Positions 1 to 5,394 of a DNA stretch of 5,394 nt are shown one piece after another. The notes below the pieces were generated by a model. That model worked only from the letters and a program-made list of their open reading frames with translations. It searched no databases and was not told where the DNA came from. Source of the stretch: Promethearchaeota archaeon (GTDB taxonomy: Archaea; Asgardarchaeota; Lokiarchaeia; Sigynarchaeales; SOKP01); assembly GCA_016839425.1 (NCBI GenBank), contig JAEOUI010000204.1, positions 1 to 5,394 on the forward strand, written 5' to 3'. Every line of letters starts with the position of its first letter. The stretch's first letter is position 1. The position numbers and the translations under genes are program-made.

Positions 1-1068
1 AAGTAAATTTATCGTTTCTGTATGAGGGTCGTTATTATTGAAAACAAAGCGTAATGCAGAATTCGGAGAAGTTGTAGGCCATGTTGTATTGCCCCAAAAA
101 CTTAAAGTTAAATTTGCTTCAATATTTTTTGCTGCTGAAGGTATAGCTGCAACCGTTTGATAGAAAGATGCTTTAGACTCGTAATCAATTATTTTCTCAT
201 AAGTAAAATTTAGACTAAAACTATTAATTCTTAAGTAGTTCCACCTATCATCATCAATAGCTGGTACATTGTCAACAAACTCTGCTTCTATGCCTAAAAA
301 GATGGAAAGTTGTTGTGAATTATCGGCGAGTGCAGATTCTATCACGGAAATCAAGATACTTTGGTCTAATACAGTCATGTGTTGGTATGATAAAGATGTA
401 GCACCAGTTGTTTCAATGCTCGCTACTCTAACCGCTGGAAGGGTTTCTGCTAAATCTCTTATTTCTACATATAGTTTGGCAGTATCTTCTGCCTCCAAAG
501 GATATGATCCCGTATTTCTTTGCGTACTCACGATAGCATCCAATTCTGCATACACAATTTTATAATCTGAAATATTAATATCAGTAGAAATATCGTATTG
601 CCAATAAGATCCTGCGTGTTGGTCTTCTTCTGCACCATCATGCCATTCATGAGTTACCGAGATGCCCTCACCTGCTACATAACCTGCTGAATCACATGCA
701 TATTGCGTATATGGATTATCTATAACAGTTCCCCAATCTGTAGATGTGGGAATTTCACTATAATTATAAGATCCCTCATTTCCTAGAACATCAAAACTGA
801 TCGAACCCGTATTATAAACCATATCTATATCATTATTAGAATCATCCGTTGAAGTTATCCAATATGTATCTCCCAAGTCAAATCCATTATCCTGAAATAA
901 TTCGTCAGAATATGGTACTGTATAATTTCCTTGAGTATTAAGGTTTGGTTCATTAATATTAATTATATTATCACTTAAATTCAGTTGGTTAAACATTCCT
1001 ATCGTCATTATCGTGATAAAAACAACAGTAAGTATCTTTATTTTAGATTTTTTACTTATTAAATACAT
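1..1068 (-). CDS. Secreted/surface glycoprotein, N-terminal part (3' end beyond window)
   Basis: An uninterrupted minus-strand frame begins at ATG 1068-1066 and continues for 356 codons to the left edge without a stop, so the C-terminus is missing. Residues 1-11 are basic (lysines at 6, 7, 9 and 11). Residues 12-26 form a hydrophobic stretch, as expected for a signal peptide or N-terminal membrane anchor. The rest is rich in Ser, Thr, Asn, Asp and Tyr with alternating beta-strand patterns, and I see only one cysteine (C125). Seven N-x-S/T sequons occur, at N30, N48, N102, N165, N287, N319 and N327, fitting an N-glycosylated extracellular archaeal protein. Residues about 150-295 look like one beta-sandwich domain (strands around YKIVYAEL, KLYVEI and FSLNFTY), and a second domain may start near 315. 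I do not recognise a named family. Start choice: GGGAT lies 6 nt upstream of the ATG, immediately followed by the signal-like segment. It diverges from the winged-helix gene at 1208. The reading frame and export are well supported; the function is unknown. Confidence 0.8.
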   Translation of the reverse strand, partial: MYLISKKSKIKILTVVFITIMTIGMFNQLNLSDNIININEPNLNTQGNYTVPYSDELFQDNGFDLGDTYWITSTDDSNNDIDMVYNTGSISFDVLGNEGSYNYSEIPTSTDWGTVIDNPYTQYACDSAGYVAGEGISVTHEWHDGAEEDQHAGSYWQYDISTDINISDYKIVYAELDAIVSTQRNTGSYPLEAEDTAKLYVEIRDLAETLPAVRVASIETTGATSLSYQHMTVLDQSILISVIESALADNSQQLSIFLGIEAEFVDNVPAIDDDRWNYLRINSFSLNFTYEKIIDYESKASFYQTVAAIPSAAKNIEANLTLSFWGNTTWPTTSPNSALRFVFNNNDPHTETINLL

Positions 1069-1074
1069 GAGTAT

Positions 1075-1083
1075 ATCCCTTCT
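1075..1083 (-). promoter_or_regulatory. Ribosome binding site of the surface-protein gene
   Basis: On the minus strand AGAAGGGAT precedes the ATG at 1068, leaving a 6-nt spacer. It is a weak purine-rich Shine-Dalgarno-like element, but it shares the GGAT core seen before the other three genes and so supports this start. Confidence 0.45.
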
Positions 1084-1194
1084 GTTTAAATTTGTAAGTT
1101 TCCAAATGTGTAGAAAAAAATTTGAAAATTAAGATGAACTATTTATATTTAATGCATCTAATTTATATAAATATAAACATTTTAGCAAAACATC

Positions 1195-1200
1195 GAGGAT
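1195..1200 (+). promoter_or_regulatory. Ribosome binding site of the longin-like/wHTH gene
   Basis: GAGGAT lies 7 nt upstream of the ATG at 1208. It is the most Shine-Dalgarno-like element of the four in the window and fixes this start. Confidence 0.55.
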
Positions 1201-1207
1201 ATTAAAT

Positions 1208-2461
1208 ATGATTCAAGGTATTTTTTGCTTTCAGTTCGTTTTAAACCAAAGTCCTTCTGGGGAAATAGAACCCGAATTCAAGCCCGTCCAAATCGTACTC
1301 AAGAACGAAGAATTCACGCCTAATAATTATTCTGGGCTAATGGTCGAAAACGACATTTTTGCAATTTTTTACCAGCACACCACGGGCATTTATGCCAGTA
1401 AAGGAGGACATAGCAATTATTATACAGGTAGGTTAAAAGAAACCCCTTATCAAGTAATATCGTATTACAAGCAAGAAGCAGATGGTACTCAATATATTAC
1501 TATATCTATATTCGAGCTTGACGACGAGATAGCCATTTTTGAAGATTTAATTAAGGACTTAACCATACGCTTAGACAATTCCTTTGAAACGCTCTTGAAG
1601 GCAAATGCAGCCAAGCAGACATCCATTATTTTGAAAATTAACGAAAAAATAAAGACTGACATCAGCTTCACGATATTTCAAGTCGAAAGATTGGCAAACT
1701 TAGATAGGTTACAGAAAGTCGCCTTGATATTTAACACGAGAGAGCGCTTGACCATACTCAAAACTTTAAGAGAGACTCCCGTTTCTAAAAGTCATATGAA
1801 AGACATTTTAGAAAAAATCAAACCCGTTTTTAATATTGATATTTTGATTGAGCCATTTTTAGAATTGAACTTGATCCGTCGAGATTGGATTAAAGGCGAA
1901 AAGGATAGGGCTACTGGTAGGATGAAATTTCAAGGAGAATATTTGTTTTTGGTAAAAGACATTACTTTAGCACGAATTCCTAACAATACTTTATTAGAAC
2001 ACCTAAAGACTAGTAATCCTTCCCTGCAAGAGAATTTCGAGCAAAGAACCATCGATTTTTTCTCTAAATACGATCCCTTGCTTCAGACCGACGAGGATTT
2101 GGGTCAAATCTCTATGCTATTGTTAAATCCGGATATTTACGACTTTCTTGCGCTTATGCGGAAGAATTACTATCCTGTAGCCAAAATTCCAAAAGTTTTT
2201 TCAGAATACGCTAATACACAAAAGATATTGGATTGGTTGAAAGAAATCCAAGTGATTGTTGATGTAAAAGACGGAGAAAATCGTGAATTCACCTGCTTGT
2301 TAACGGACATTAAGCCTCTCATCATTTTCCCAGAATATTTACTTCCAAAGATTCAAAAGGCATATCAATCGTACGATAAAAAGGTTCAAATATCTCATGA
2401 AATCGCCAAAAAGGCTTTGGAATTGTTGGAAGTCACCTATCCCGAAAAAATTGATTTATAG
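1208..2461 (+). CDS. Possible longin/Roadblock-like domain protein with two winged-helix modules
   Basis: The protein has 417 residues and no signal peptide or membrane segment, so it is probably cytosolic. Residues 1-125 form an alpha/beta domain: hydrophobic strands at 2-10, 49-55 and 95-102, then an acidic amphipathic helix at 104-122 (DDEIAIFEDLIKDL). This resembles longin/Roadblock-type sensor domains, but I place it by pattern only. A helical connector follows. Residues about 169-257 look like a winged helix: helices at 177-188 and 195-204, a possible recognition helix at 211-219 (ILIEPFLEL), then a basic wing (KGEKDRATGRMK) and a beta hairpin. Residues about 307-381 look like a second winged helix, with helices at 308-318, 325-333 and 336-346, and a hairpin at 349-364. 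Two winged helices suggest DNA binding or a protein-protein scaffold. The gene stands alone: it diverges from the surface-protein gene and converges with the GTPase gene 33 bp downstream. Its start is supported by GAGGAT 7 nt upstream. The reading frame is certain; the domain assignments are moderate to low, and no function is claimed. Confidence 0.75.
   Translation: MIQGIFCFQFVLNQSPSGEIEPEFKPVQIVLKNEEFTPNNYSGLMVENDIFAIFYQHTTGIYASKGGHSNYYTGRLKETPYQVISYYKQEADGTQYITISIFELDDEIAIFEDLIKDLTIRLDNSFETLLKANAAKQTSIILKINEKIKTDISFTIFQVERLANLDRLQKVALIFNTRERLTILKTLRETPVSKSHMKDILEKIKPVFNIDILIEPFLELNLIRRDWIKGEKDRATGRMKFQGEYLFLVKDITLARIPNNTLLEHLKTSNPSLQENFEQRTIDFFSKYDPLLQTDEDLGQISMLLLNPDIYDFLALMRKNYYPVAKIPKVFSEYANTQKILDWLKEIQVIVDVKDGENREFTCLLTDIKPLIIFPEYLLPKIQKAYQSYDKKVQISHEIAKKALELLEVTYPEKIDL
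2445..2450 (-). terminator. Possible T6 terminator of the GTPase transcript
   Basis: The gap beyond the minus-strand GTPase stop is purine-rich on that strand and offers no T-run. The first one met is T6, at plus-strand A2445-A2450, inside the last codons of the convergent gene. If used, the two convergent transcripts would overlap by tens of bases. The call rests on position and composition alone. Confidence 0.2.
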
Positions 2462-2463
2462 CC

Positions 2464-2482
2464 TTTTTCTTTTATTTTCTTT
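2464..2482 (+). terminator. T-rich terminator after the longin-like/wHTH gene
   Basis: Directly after the TAG stop, the plus strand carries three T-runs of 4-5 broken by single C or A residues. There is no hairpin. Such T-rich tracts are the usual intrinsic termination signal of archaeal RNA polymerase. It fills most of the 33-bp gap before the convergent GTPase gene. Confidence 0.55.
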
Positions 2483-2494
2483 ATTATATTGTCT

Positions 2495-4132
2495 TTAATA
2501 GGAAAACATCAGATTTTTTACTTCATTAACCATTACTTCGAGCTGTTCATAGAGCTCTAACTTGTTTTCGGCATTAATTTTAATAAAAAAGATAGATGTG
2601 TTTTTCTTTTCATACTTCTTTGGTATGACGAAATCTTCTATGATTCTCGAAGGATCTGTTTTTTCAGAAGAAAGTAGACCGATTAAGATGACCTTGTTTT
2701 TTTCAATTTTATCAAGTATCTTTACAAGGATTTCATTCCATTTTGGATCGATGAAAGTCTTGTCTGCTAATTCGAAAGTCAAGAAAACGCCATCTGAATC
2801 AGAACTTTTAAAAGAGTCGTAATCGTGATTTTTCACGACAAGTCCGCTCGAGTATTTGAATTGCTGCTCTTTCTTTTTATCCTTTTCAGTTGAGAATTGG
2901 CCCAATTCCTCGATTTCTAAAATCAAGTTTATTAATGGATTTTGTAAGGGATTTTCAGACACAAAAGAGAGAGTTACTTTATTTTTATTGCTTTCTAAAA
3001 TGTTTTTAATTTCCTCCATAATAGACGATTTTAACCGTTGCTCCTCTAGTTCCATGCTTTTCAAGATATAGTGATAAGAAAGGATGTTAAACGCATTTTC
3101 TACATTGTCACCGTTCAAGGCACTCGTCTCGATGTACATAATTCTCGTGTCCGACGATATAGAAAGGCTTGAAAGGTCTGAGAAATCGGTCAAACCAGAT
3201 TTCTCGTATAATTCGGCAAAATCTGATAAATCTTTGGCAAGTTGAATGCCTTCATCGAATTGAATCTGTCTATTGTTAACCAGGTCGTTCTTATTTCCGA
3301 CAATGATAATTGGCAGGTCCTTGTATTCTGTAAATTCCCTGAGTTCGTCGTGCCAAACTTTCACGTTCTCAAACGATTCTCGACTTGTTAGATCAAAAAC
3401 TATAAATGCTGCTTGGGCTCCCTTGTAATAAATCTTTCTGTAACGCTTGAAATATTCTTGGGCGCCAATATCCCATAACGATAGATTAATATTATTTCCA
3501 TGAGCTTCGAAGGAATGACCCATTACATGTAACCCCATTGTAGCGCGATAATCGGTTAAAAACTCCCTTCCCACAAATCTTCTTACGATGGAGGTTTTAC
3601 CTACCATGTGGTCGCCAATGATGATGAATTTAAATCTGTACGCTCCTCCCTCCTCAATCTTTTTCTTGTGGATAATGTTCATTGTATCCTCGTCTTGAGT
3701 GGATATTGGTTCAAAATCGAATTCTGGAAGTTGGATGTTTAAGGGTTCGTCTTCTGAGATGTTAAGGATCTGGGCGACCTTTTCGGCAATATAATAGGCG
3801 AATGGTGAAATACGTTCAACCGATGCCATGCTTTTTAAGACAACGCTTAGCGTTTTGCTTTCCTCTATCGATACGAATAATAAACGATGACCGCTCGTGT
3901 CGAAATTAGCGGTTCCAAACTCCTTAAACGCAAATTCGTCCCGTAATCGTTCCATTATGGGATTAACAATAACTCCCAAAATTGAAACGATCTCCATGTC
4001 AATGTCCTTCCTTTTTTCGCCCGCAATGATGAATCCATCAGTGTCGGATACGATCGCAGCTTCGATATCTTCATTTACTTTCAAGAAATTCTTAAACAAA
4101 TCTTTGAAAAGTTGTTGTTTAGTTTGAACCAT
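2495..4132 (-). CDS. Roadblock/LC7 - Rab/Ras-like GTPase - pseudo-GTPase fusion protein
   Basis: From ATG 4132 the protein has 545 residues. An in-frame ATG at 4144 would add four, but GGATGA lies 8 nt before 4132, so I prefer the shorter form. Residues 8-122 are a Roadblock/LC7 domain (strand-turn EAAIVSDTDGFIIA near 25-37), a fold that scaffolds or regulates small GTPases. Residues 123-165 are an acidic linker. Residues 166-356 are a Rab/Ras-like GTPase: G1 GDHMVGKTS at 173-181, G2 Thr198, G3 WDIGAQE at 220-226, G4 NKND at 280-283 and G5 ETSA at 335-338. Two oddities stand out: the DxxG glycine is Ala224, and about 25 extra Ser/Leu/Asp-rich residues (304-328) separate G4 from G5. A helical connector (357-382) leads to 383-545, which resembles a second GTPase fold without its nucleotide-binding motifs (separate entry). 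I see no cysteine anywhere, hence no prenylation box, and no membrane segment. Role inferred: a GTP-dependent switch with built-in Roadblock and pseudo-GTPase partners. It diverges from the CxxC/wHTH gene. The first two domains are very secure. Confidence 0.92.
   Translation of the reverse strand: MVQTKQQLFKDLFKNFLKVNEDIEAAIVSDTDGFIIAGEKRKDIDMEIVSILGVIVNPIMERLRDEFAFKEFGTANFDTSGHRLLFVSIEESKTLSVVLKSMASVERISPFAYYIAEKVAQILNISEDEPLNIQLPEFDFEPISTQDEDTMNIIHKKKIEEGGAYRFKFIIIGDHMVGKTSIVRRFVGREFLTDYRATMGLHVMGHSFEAHGNNINLSLWDIGAQEYFKRYRKIYYKGAQAAFIVFDLTSRESFENVKVWHDELREFTEYKDLPIIIVGNKNDLVNNRQIQFDEGIQLAKDLSDFAELYEKSGLTDFSDLSSLSISSDTRIMYIETSALNGDNVENAFNILSYHYILKSMELEEQRLKSSIMEEIKNILESNKNKVTLSFVSENPLQNPLINLILEIEELGQFSTEKDKKKEQQFKYSSGLVVKNHDYDSFKSSDSDGVFLTFELADKTFIDPKWNEILVKILDKIEKNKVILIGLLSSEKTDPSRIIEDFVIPKKYEKKNTSIFFIKINAENKLELYEQLEVMVNEVKNLMFSY
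2498..2986 (-). other. Degenerate second GTPase (pseudo-GTPase) domain within the fusion protein
   Basis: Residues 383-545 of the GTPase fusion can be laid by eye on its own GTPase domain. The P-loop position holds SENPLQNP (392-399), the same length as GDHMVGKT but with both glycines, the lysine and the threonine replaced, and followed by a similar helix. GVFLTFELADKTF...W (448-465) matches AAFIVFDLTSRESF...W, the conserved strand after switch II. VILIG (481-485) matches IIIVG before G4, but NKND becomes LLSS. IFFIKINA (514-521) matches IMYIETSA at G5, with the key residues changed to K, I and N. The terminal helix corresponds to the last Ras helix. The switch regions are shortened. The domain should therefore be unable to bind GTP in the standard way and may act as an intramolecular partner of the active domain. 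The alignment was made by eye; a structure prediction would settle it. Confidence 0.6.
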
Positions 4133-4140
4133 ATTTTTTA

Positions 4141-4146
4141 TCATCC
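4141..4146 (-). promoter_or_regulatory. Ribosome binding site deciding the GTPase start
   Basis: GGATGA on the minus strand lies 8 nt before the ATG at 4132 and overlaps the alternative ATG at 4144, which has no comparable element upstream. The same GGATGA occurs 7 nt before the divergent gene at 4323, which supports 4132 as the main start. Use of 4144 from a leaderless transcript remains possible. Confidence 0.5.
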
Positions 4147-4307
4147 AAATTTTTATAATTGAGAAAGATCATTAATTAAATGGATATTACTATTTAATAA
4201 AGTATTGAAACAAGATTAATTTAACATTTAAATTATAGTTTGTTCTAACACTTAGTTAATATAAATTGATTTAAATTATATTGCATTAGAAACTAAAAAT
4301 CGCTTTC
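4147..4307. promoter_or_regulatory. Divergent AT-rich promoter region between the GTPase and CxxC/wHTH genes
   Basis: The full gap (4145-4322) is strongly AT-rich and has no open frame or RNA gene that I can see. TATA-like candidates for the plus-strand gene are TAATATAAAT (4257-4266) and TTAAATTATA (4271-4280), predicting starts about 26 bp downstream and short leaders before 4323. For the minus-strand gene, AT-rich blocks at 4171-4180 and 4190-4200 lie at suitable distances. Which box is used cannot be decided from the sequence. Confidence 0.4.
4226..4280. repeat. 12-bp direct repeat in the divergent promoter region
   Basis: ATTTAAATTATA occurs exactly at 4226-4237 and again at 4269-4280, offset by 43 bp, close to four helical turns. 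The second copy overlaps a TATA candidate for the plus-strand gene. It could be an operator pair or two core-promoter elements. In such AT-rich DNA, chance similarity is also possible. Confidence 0.35.
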
Positions 4308-4309
4308 AA

Positions 4310-4315
4310 GGATGA
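4310..4315 (+). promoter_or_regulatory. Ribosome binding site of the CxxC/wHTH coiled-coil gene
   Basis: GGATGA, preceded by AA, lies 7 nt upstream of the ATG at 4323. It is identical to the element before the divergent GTPase gene. An in-frame TAG at 4287-4289 rules out a much longer N-terminus. Confidence 0.5.
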
Positions 4316-4322
4316 CGAAAAA

Positions 4323-5394
4323 ATGTATTTATTCAAGGATATGAACGAAATTGAACTGGTTTTTAACTGTAAGGTGTGTTTTAAAGAGGAGAAAATCACG
4401 ATTACGAAAACAGATTTTATGAACATTTCGGAATTTCCCGCTGTCAAAGAATTCATTCACGAGAATCCCCCCCACAAGTTATTATTATACATAAACAAGA
4501 ACCTCGAAATTGAGAATTTCAAAATAGAGGACATCATCGATAAAGATGTGAGCTACTCTGAAGACTTGGTCAAGCAAGCTTTAGCCGAAATCGAGCTTAC
4601 TGATGAGGAAATAAACCTATATTTCTTGAGTACGGGTCGAGATGTGCTTTCGCTCGGCGAGATCTCTATTTTATTGGAGAAACCAAAAGAAGAATGCCAA
4701 AAGATTGCCGAAAAATTCGTAGAAAAAGGGCTATTCAAGGAGGTTGTTGGAGCGTCTCCACATTATGCCCCCTTACCCCCTTACGCTGCGTTAGTAAGTC
4801 AACTAAAGAGCTTTCATGGTTTTATCTCTGAAATACACTCAAACGCTCCAAAAGAGCTTGAAGCGTCGTTTAAGGAACTAGAGAGCCAAACCGAAGGTAT
4901 GACTCGCTTAAAGGACTACTCTGATTTTATGAAGGACCTAAAATCAAATACGATCAACACGATGGTGCAACAAAAACAGGAAATGGACGATACTCTAGCT
5001 GGCATGGAGAGGATAAAGGACTTATCTTCTACTATCACTGGTTTAGACGATAAAACGAAGGCACTCTTTGACCAACAAACTAATGTTTTAACCGAGCAAT
5101 TTAATGTAATCAATACGAAAGTATCTGAGGCAATTAAAAAACAGTTCTTGGAACTTATTGAAGAGATTCTGGGTGTAAAAACAAAAATATCTACAAACCT
5201 TCAGAAATTGCGATTAGGCGTCGTGCAACAAACAGTAGATCAAGTAATAGATAATATTTTTTCCACATGGATAACACAAATGGAAGATAGCTTGAACCAA
5301 CAAGTAAAGGACATAGAAAAAGTAACCGAAGAAGTGCTCAAGGGCTCCATACAAGGATTCTTTAATGATTTCATATCAAACTTGAAAGATATAA
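4323..5394 (+). CDS. CxxC-domain / TrmB-like winged-helix / coiled-coil protein (3' end beyond window)
   Basis: The frame is open from ATG 4323 to the right edge, giving 357 complete codons without a stop; the C-terminus is missing. Residues 1-75 form a small domain with a single CxxC (C16, C19) in an otherwise strand-rich segment, plus the motif HENPPHKLLLYINKN (46-60); I cannot name its family. Residues 92-162 match the TrmB-type winged helix in layout: LTDEEINLYFLSTG (helix 1), LGEISILLEK (helix 2), KEECQKIAEKFVEKGLF (recognition helix) and a short wing ending HYAPLPPYAAL, where TrmB proteins typically have a Y-x-P-x-P-P-x-x-A-L pattern. From about 163 to the edge almost everything is amphipathic helix rich in K, E, Q, D and L, with few prolines or glycines, as in a long coiled coil; no sugar-binding TrmB effector domain is visible. 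It is probably a cytosolic, oligomeric DNA-binding or scaffolding protein. It diverges from the Roadblock-GTPase gene over a shared 190-bp control region, so the two could be co-regulated (inference). Its effector is unknown. Confidence 0.8.
   Translation, partial: MYLFKDMNEIELVFNCKVCFKEEKITITKTDFMNISEFPAVKEFIHENPPHKLLLYINKNLEIENFKIEDIIDKDVSYSEDLVKQALAEIELTDEEINLYFLSTGRDVLSLGEISILLEKPKEECQKIAEKFVEKGLFKEVVGASPHYAPLPPYAALVSQLKSFHGFISEIHSNAPKELEASFKELESQTEGMTRLKDYSDFMKDLKSNTINTMVQQKQEMDDTLAGMERIKDLSSTITGLDDKTKALFDQQTNVLTEQFNVINTKVSEAIKKQFLELIEEILGVKTKISTNLQKLRLGVVQQTVDQVIDNIFSTWITQMEDSLNQQVKDIEKVTEEVLKGSIQGFFNDFISNLKDI

Follow-up and report, generated by a model that had tools for sequence, protein, structure and literature searches.

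Small GTPases number in the dozens in Asgard archaea, and at stake in the locus described here is which modes of small-GTPase regulation preceded the eukaryotes: does a single archaeal chain join a live GTPase to a second GTPase fold that has lost its nucleotide motifs? The locus lies on a 5,394-nucleotide stretch of Promethearchaeota archaeon DNA (GenBank contig JAEOUI010000204.1, positions 1 to 5,394; referred to as the window). A sequence-only reading had proposed a tandem GTPase and pseudo-GTPase chain at 2498-3634, a span that corresponds to residues 171-549 of a 549-residue frame. Both the frame and the tandem chain were borne out by the analysis, and it is very probable that the gene encodes an Asgard (Promethearchaeal) Roadblock-GTPase-pseudoGTPase protein. 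Its features were located as follows.

2495-4144, minus strand: whole gene, Roadblock-GTPase-pseudoGTPase, 549 amino acids (open reading frame)
3740-4129, minus strand: Roadblock-like N-terminal domain, residues 6-135 (family profile)
3062-3649, minus strand: Ras/Rab-type GTPase domain, residues 166-361 (Pfam Ras at residues 172-355, E = 1.5e-42; Rab11B, E = 5.9e-27)
3593-3616, minus strand: intact P-loop GDHMVGKT, residues 177-184 (sequence, column counts)
3458-3472, minus strand: unusual G3 motif DIGAQ, residues 225-229, with Ala at the place of Ras Gly60 (column counts)
3284-3295, minus strand: intact G4 motif NKND, residues 284-287 (sequence, column counts)
3119-3127, minus strand: intact G5 motif TSA, residues 340-342 (sequence, column counts)
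2990-3058, minus strand: predicted helix into the second domain, residues 363-385 (model; several structure matches put it where Arf has its N-terminal helix)
2510-2983, minus strand: pseudoGTPase domain, residues ~388-545 (predicted fold, profiles)
2936-2959, minus strand: predicted P-loop equivalent SENPLQNP, residues 396-403, with no Gly, Lys or Ser/Thr at the nucleotide places (model, column counts)
2753-2791, minus strand: b4 segment GVFLTFELADKTF, residues 452-464 (profile-profile alignment, PDB profile match)
2666-2689, minus strand: b5/G4 equivalent ILIGLLSS, residues 486-493, no NKxD (profiles, column counts)
2570-2590, minus strand: b6/G5 equivalent FFIKINA, residues 519-525 (model, profile-profile alignment)

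Homologues begin at residue 5 of the frame (4132), so translation may start there. The nearest relative from a named record, Candidatus Lokiarchaeota archaeon isolate Zod_Metabat.1389 (L001), was 94% identical over the C-terminal part. Pfam gave no match above cut-off for the N-terminal or C-terminal parts of the protein.

The AlphaFold2 model of the second domain was compared with solved GTPases, and not with residues 166-356 as had been suggested; the predicted structure was a small-GTPase fold. The list of structures matched was mostly Arf, and the best solved structure had 14% identity. In the model the P-loop region consists of a strand (residues 390-395), a loop (396-402) and a helix from residue 403, and the switch II helix is absent. 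The proposed pairing of SENPLQNP with GDHMVGKT, which lies outside the sequence-profile alignments, was retained on the basis of this model. A single-sequence AlphaFold2 prediction for residues 364-549 arranged the elements in much the same order, but with a predicted local distance difference test score of 56.7, and was not taken as evidence.

Profile searches of the second domain also led to small GTPases, whether in PDB, in 227 Asgard genomes or by profile-profile comparison. A wide profile built from ten diverse C-terminal domains had Rho6/Rnd1 as its top PDB match (E = 3.5e-4, covering b4-a3-b5); eight of the ten PDB matches at E 10 or better were Rho-family GTPases, and the other two were a designed protein. 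When the same profile was run against the 227 genomes, the eight best places below the family were small GTPases in register (G021, G020, G013, G034, G030, G140, G107 and G027; E = 0.0025 or better). Local profile search repeated the match in four of them (L126, L127, L129 and L139), the remaining four being placed by coordinates. Still weaker genome matches, among those listed, included unrelated frames (L133, L141, L142 and L144).

Profile-profile comparison was carried out with 89 representatives of the second domain under strict domain limits. Against 28 Asgard GTPases from Arf (PF00025) loci it gave 90% and a score of 44.8 over 92 columns; the maximum in 60 column shuffles was 18.7 with the target shuffled and 21.5 with the query shuffled, and the Roadblock domain scored 14.0 against the same set. 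The values were 52% and 33.5 against the protein family's own first GTPase (shuffles 25.3, strict rerun) and 26% and 29.2 against 25 Asgard GTPases from Ras (PF00071) loci (shuffles 20.8). An earlier run against the first GTPase used 92 rows (92 of 94 representatives, two short ones having been dropped) and scored 30.3, compared to a maximum of 25.95 in 200 shuffles. HMMER cross-matches between the first and second domains were weak and were found in 11 of 211 proteins. The likeness of the second domain to GTPases exceeds chance. Of the motif pairs previously aligned by eye, GVFLTFELADKTF with AAFIVFDLTSRESF and ILIG-LLSS with IIVG-NKND were in register both in the profile-profile alignment and in the Rho6 PDB match, and in the 92-column alignment to the GTPases from Arf loci FFIKINA took the b6/G5 position of the GTPase fold.

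The claim that nucleotide-contacting motifs were lost while the fold was kept was likewise upheld. GxxxxGK[ST] was absent from the second domain of all 167 distinct proteins in which this domain was near-complete. Among 163 full-length sequences, 161 had Pro where the Mg-binding Ser/Thr would be, and 158 had Asn or Ser instead of the P-loop Lys. An [NT]KxD was present somewhere in the second domain of 14 of the 167 proteins; in nine of these it was a TKKD or TKRD near the end of the G4 strand, two residues out of register. When relatives were checked for GKS/T or in-register NKxD in the second domain, none of those found had either, and the deepest branches (L136, L137 and L138, from three genomes, and P0065-P0072) were degenerate as well. 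Since no relative found keeps these motifs, the inactivation of the second domain probably predates the divergence of the known members. By its predicted small-GTPase fold and the loss of its G1 and G4 motifs, it is very probably a pseudoGTPase.

The second domain scored higher against the Arf-loci set than against its own first domain, which in turn scored higher than the Ras-loci set. Mixed make-up and greater diversity may have raised the score of the Arf-loci set. As the second domain looks nearer to these GTPases than to its Rab-like neighbour, it may have been appended, and internal duplication of the first GTPase is the less favoured origin.

The first GTPase retained its nucleotide-binding motifs. 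GxxxxGK[ST], the switch I Thr and NKxD were present in 163 of 163 relatives, and G5 was ETSA in 161, ESSA in one and EASA in one. The exception was G3, which in Ras reads D57-x-x-G60 and here is DIGA, not the canonical DxxG; across the 163 relatives the fourth place was Ala in 147, Ser in three and Gly in 13. By its fold and other motifs this domain is a member of the Ras superfamily despite the G3 change. Of the 89 other Asgard GTPases in the fetched loci, 87 had Gly at this place, and the two exceptions were members of the family truncated where the locus ends; among the GTPases compared, DxGA is confined to the Roadblock-GTPase-pseudoGTPase family. H-Ras mutants, G60A among them, are mainly in state 1, with drastically impaired intrinsic GTPase activity (PMC4867591). 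By analogy, the simplest reading of the DxGA domain would be a slow switch biased to the open state, and the motif would predict a GTPase that is state-1-like by nature and hydrolyses slowly. Between G4 and G5 the first GTPase also has an insert (residues ~300-335, within 3062-3295, minus strand), which is shared by close relatives of the 549-residue protein and missing from many others.

For the N-terminal domain, the family profile matched the Roadblock/LC7 chain 7yh1_D at E = 9.8e-4 and MglB chains at 0.47-0.79, with unrelated rows between. Pfam Robl_LC7 was found in three of six members, with a best E of 0.002, below the cut-off. The Roadblock assignment was therefore made from the family profile and from the likeness of the family to two-domain Roadblock-GTPases.

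The whole architecture was present in 165 of the 167 proteins, and the other two were truncated (P0011 and L079). With E 1e-9 or better as the limit for counting the family, 62 of the 227 Asgard genomes contained the second domain; at E 0.1 or better the same scan gave 89 genomes. Frames that carried it were at least 318 residues long, except for pieces at contig ends and a 57-residue piece inside a contig (G151). Genome scans, which could detect a free-standing copy of about 190 residues that length-limited protein-database searches could not, revealed no complete free-standing second domain and no other carrier in the 227 genomes. A scan of viral contigs found no relatives, and one weak genome match (G144:C55, E = 0.0018) was dropped, its frame being DNA methylase-like. 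In eight genomes the first-GTPase profile gave 245-305 bits for the nine places of the family, and the GTPases that ranked below these, which included several two-domain Roadblock-GTPases, reached 198 bits or less; the exception was a truncated family member in G161 (166 bits). From this gap the family appears to be a Roadblock-GTPase to which a domain was added at the C-terminus.

Among 55 genomes with larger matches, 42 had two or more copies, and in 31 a pair on one strand lay within 2.6 kb. FastTree analysis of 163 sequences recovered two supported clades, one of 41 members (support 0.97) and one of 29 (support 0.95), with poorly supported deeper nodes, and 26 loci carried one member of each clade. 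The 549-residue protein sits in a third group of 66, and no paralogue lies beside its gene in the window. The deepest branch was formed by L136, L137 and L138, which keep Gly in G3. Two members at locus L085 (3687-6152 and 11526-14213), of 822 and 896 residues, have an extra C-terminal part.

The protein was compared with known systems. Miro has two GTPase folds in one chain, separated by EF hands, as well as a membrane anchor, and no Roadblock domain. In contrast, the 549-residue protein begins with a Roadblock domain and has only a helix between the folds, the Pfam scan revealing no EF hand, and it is not of the Miro type. Rag/Gtr proteins are two subunits, each binding nucleotide, and their signalling unit contains Roadblock domains, which lie at the C-terminus of the subunits and join them. 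The protein described here is instead one chain, Roadblock first, with a second fold that lacks the motifs, and so falls outside the Rag/Gtr proteins. Common to both are two GTPase folds in one signalling unit, and the global conformation of Rag heterodimers shifts with the bound nucleotide (PMC12557722). Arf-family proteins, especially Asgard ArfR1 (8oul, 8oun), bind nucleotide, whereas the second domain has lost the P-loop, switch II helix and NKxD. The pseudoGTPases p190RhoGAP, Rnd1/Rnd3 and CENP-M are eukaryotic and are not known to be fused to a Roadblock-GTPase. They resemble the second domain in that their GTPase fold is no longer a switch, and p190RhoGAP is also multidomain (PMC10211241).

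The closest archaeal counterparts are Asgard Roadblock-GTPases, which share the order of Roadblock then Rab-like GTPase, as described for MK-D1 in the available part of PMC10933270; the nearest GTPases outside the family include such proteins. That part reports 74 predicted small GTPases in MK-D1, of which 26 carry a Roadblock or longin domain, and in a figure legend '?' stands for other domains. A second GTPase fold goes unmentioned there, the words pseudo and tandem being absent from the main text, and the G3 of the Roadblock-GTPases compared was DxxG. No description of an archaeal pseudoGTPase was found in the literature on archaeal and Asgard GTPases; the supplements of PMC10933270 and most subscription papers lay outside the search, and the architecture may therefore be listed somewhere as an unnamed domain. 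The protein is a variant built of known kinds, Roadblock-GTPases and pseudoGTPases.

How the parts might work together is more tentative, and the mechanism that follows is, as a whole, put a little short of an even chance. Through its Roadblock domain the protein would form a dimer, either with a second copy or with a paralogue. The first GTPase would bind GTP, hydrolyse it slowly and prefer an open, effector-poor state, as in Ras G60A. The nucleotide-free pseudoGTPase, locked in an Arf-like shape, would act in cis to hold or complete the active form, and would offer a docking face, in both respects somewhat resembling the second subunit of a Rag heterodimer; such a chain would be the 'self-contained switch module' of the sequence-only reading. 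Cis regulation is favoured in that a dead GTPase is fused to a live one bearing a change of hydrolysis-impairing type. If this is correct, degenerate GTPases partnering live ones would be older than, or independent of, the eukaryotic cases. Several observations weigh against it. The three deepest members and ten of one subclade, which make up the 13 relatives with Gly in G3, have the fusion, so the pseudoGTPase does not need the Ala. Mutual information between the domains gave no informative signal at an effective number of sequences of about 51, and contact between the two GTPase folds is a putative element of the mechanism. The 549-residue protein itself had no Pfam Robl_LC7 match, which leaves its Roadblock assignment sub-threshold. 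Finally, a GDP-like shape is hinted at by the model of the second domain, and this is not uniform (Arl3 scored 13.7 in its GppNHp form and 13.1 in its GDP form).

It is also distinctly possible, if doubtful, that the pseudoGTPase merely docks another protein or complex, in the manner of CENP-M at the kinetochore, and that the neighbouring GTPase switches alone. The fold without the motifs in all 167 proteins would fit this, as would the lack of a coupling signal between the domains and the precedents of CENP-M and p190RhoGAP as interaction pseudoGTPases (PMC10211241). Yet in the 227 genomes the second domain was never found free-standing or on another carrier, and most members have the special G3 change in the live GTPase; together these suggest a functional tie between the two folds. 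A sensor that still binds nucleotide, or some other small ligand, by a non-canonical mode is quite improbable: the N-terminal pseudoGTPase of p190RhoGAP does bind GTP without hydrolysis (same source), and nine proteins have TKKD or TKRD near the G4 strand, but these are out of register, the model has no switch II helix and the P-loop Lys and Mg-binding places are almost always replaced. Convergence of some other three-layer alpha/beta fold on a GTPase-like form is the least credible explanation and is considered very improbable; in its favour are the low identity to the best structure and single-member Pfam scans, which gave Arf in one of ten (E = 0.026) and scattered other families elsewhere. 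It is unlikely that an ancient pair of such paralogues forms a heterodimer of four GTPase folds, two live (G60A-biased) and two dead, with the dead folds setting the live ones and thereby the output, as a Rag-like Asgard hub possibly tied to a ubiquitin-type pathway via a neighbouring RING-TPR gene.

Gene neighbourhoods were compared in 60 stretches, some of which were the same place fetched twice. A RING-TPR frame was present in 38 (for example L006:3313-3891 and L082:3072-3674, both minus strand) and adjoined the family gene divergently in all 35 in which the gene map kept it. Two RING-TPR proteins were tested in Pfam, and zf-RING_2 was above the cut-off in one and just below it in the other. 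Beyond this gene there were often frames resembling thiamine-synthesis genes.

In the window, the RING-TPR frame is replaced by other neighbours. The convergent 3' neighbour (1208-2461, plus strand, 417 amino acids) was kept beside the family gene in ten of the 60 stretches, that is, the window and nine others, two of them repeats, with proteins of 415-442 residues. It matched no Pfam family above cut-off; judged by eye, it opens with a longin-like segment followed by winged helices. The divergent 5' neighbour (4323-5393, plus strand), found in eight of the 60 (the window and seven others), also had no Pfam match above cut-off, and by eye has a helix-turn-helix and a long coiled coil; in L001 it is 795 amino acids long. 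The frame at 1-1068 (minus strand) has a hydrophobic N-terminal stretch and its product is probably exported; the L001 relative at the same place has 1192 residues.
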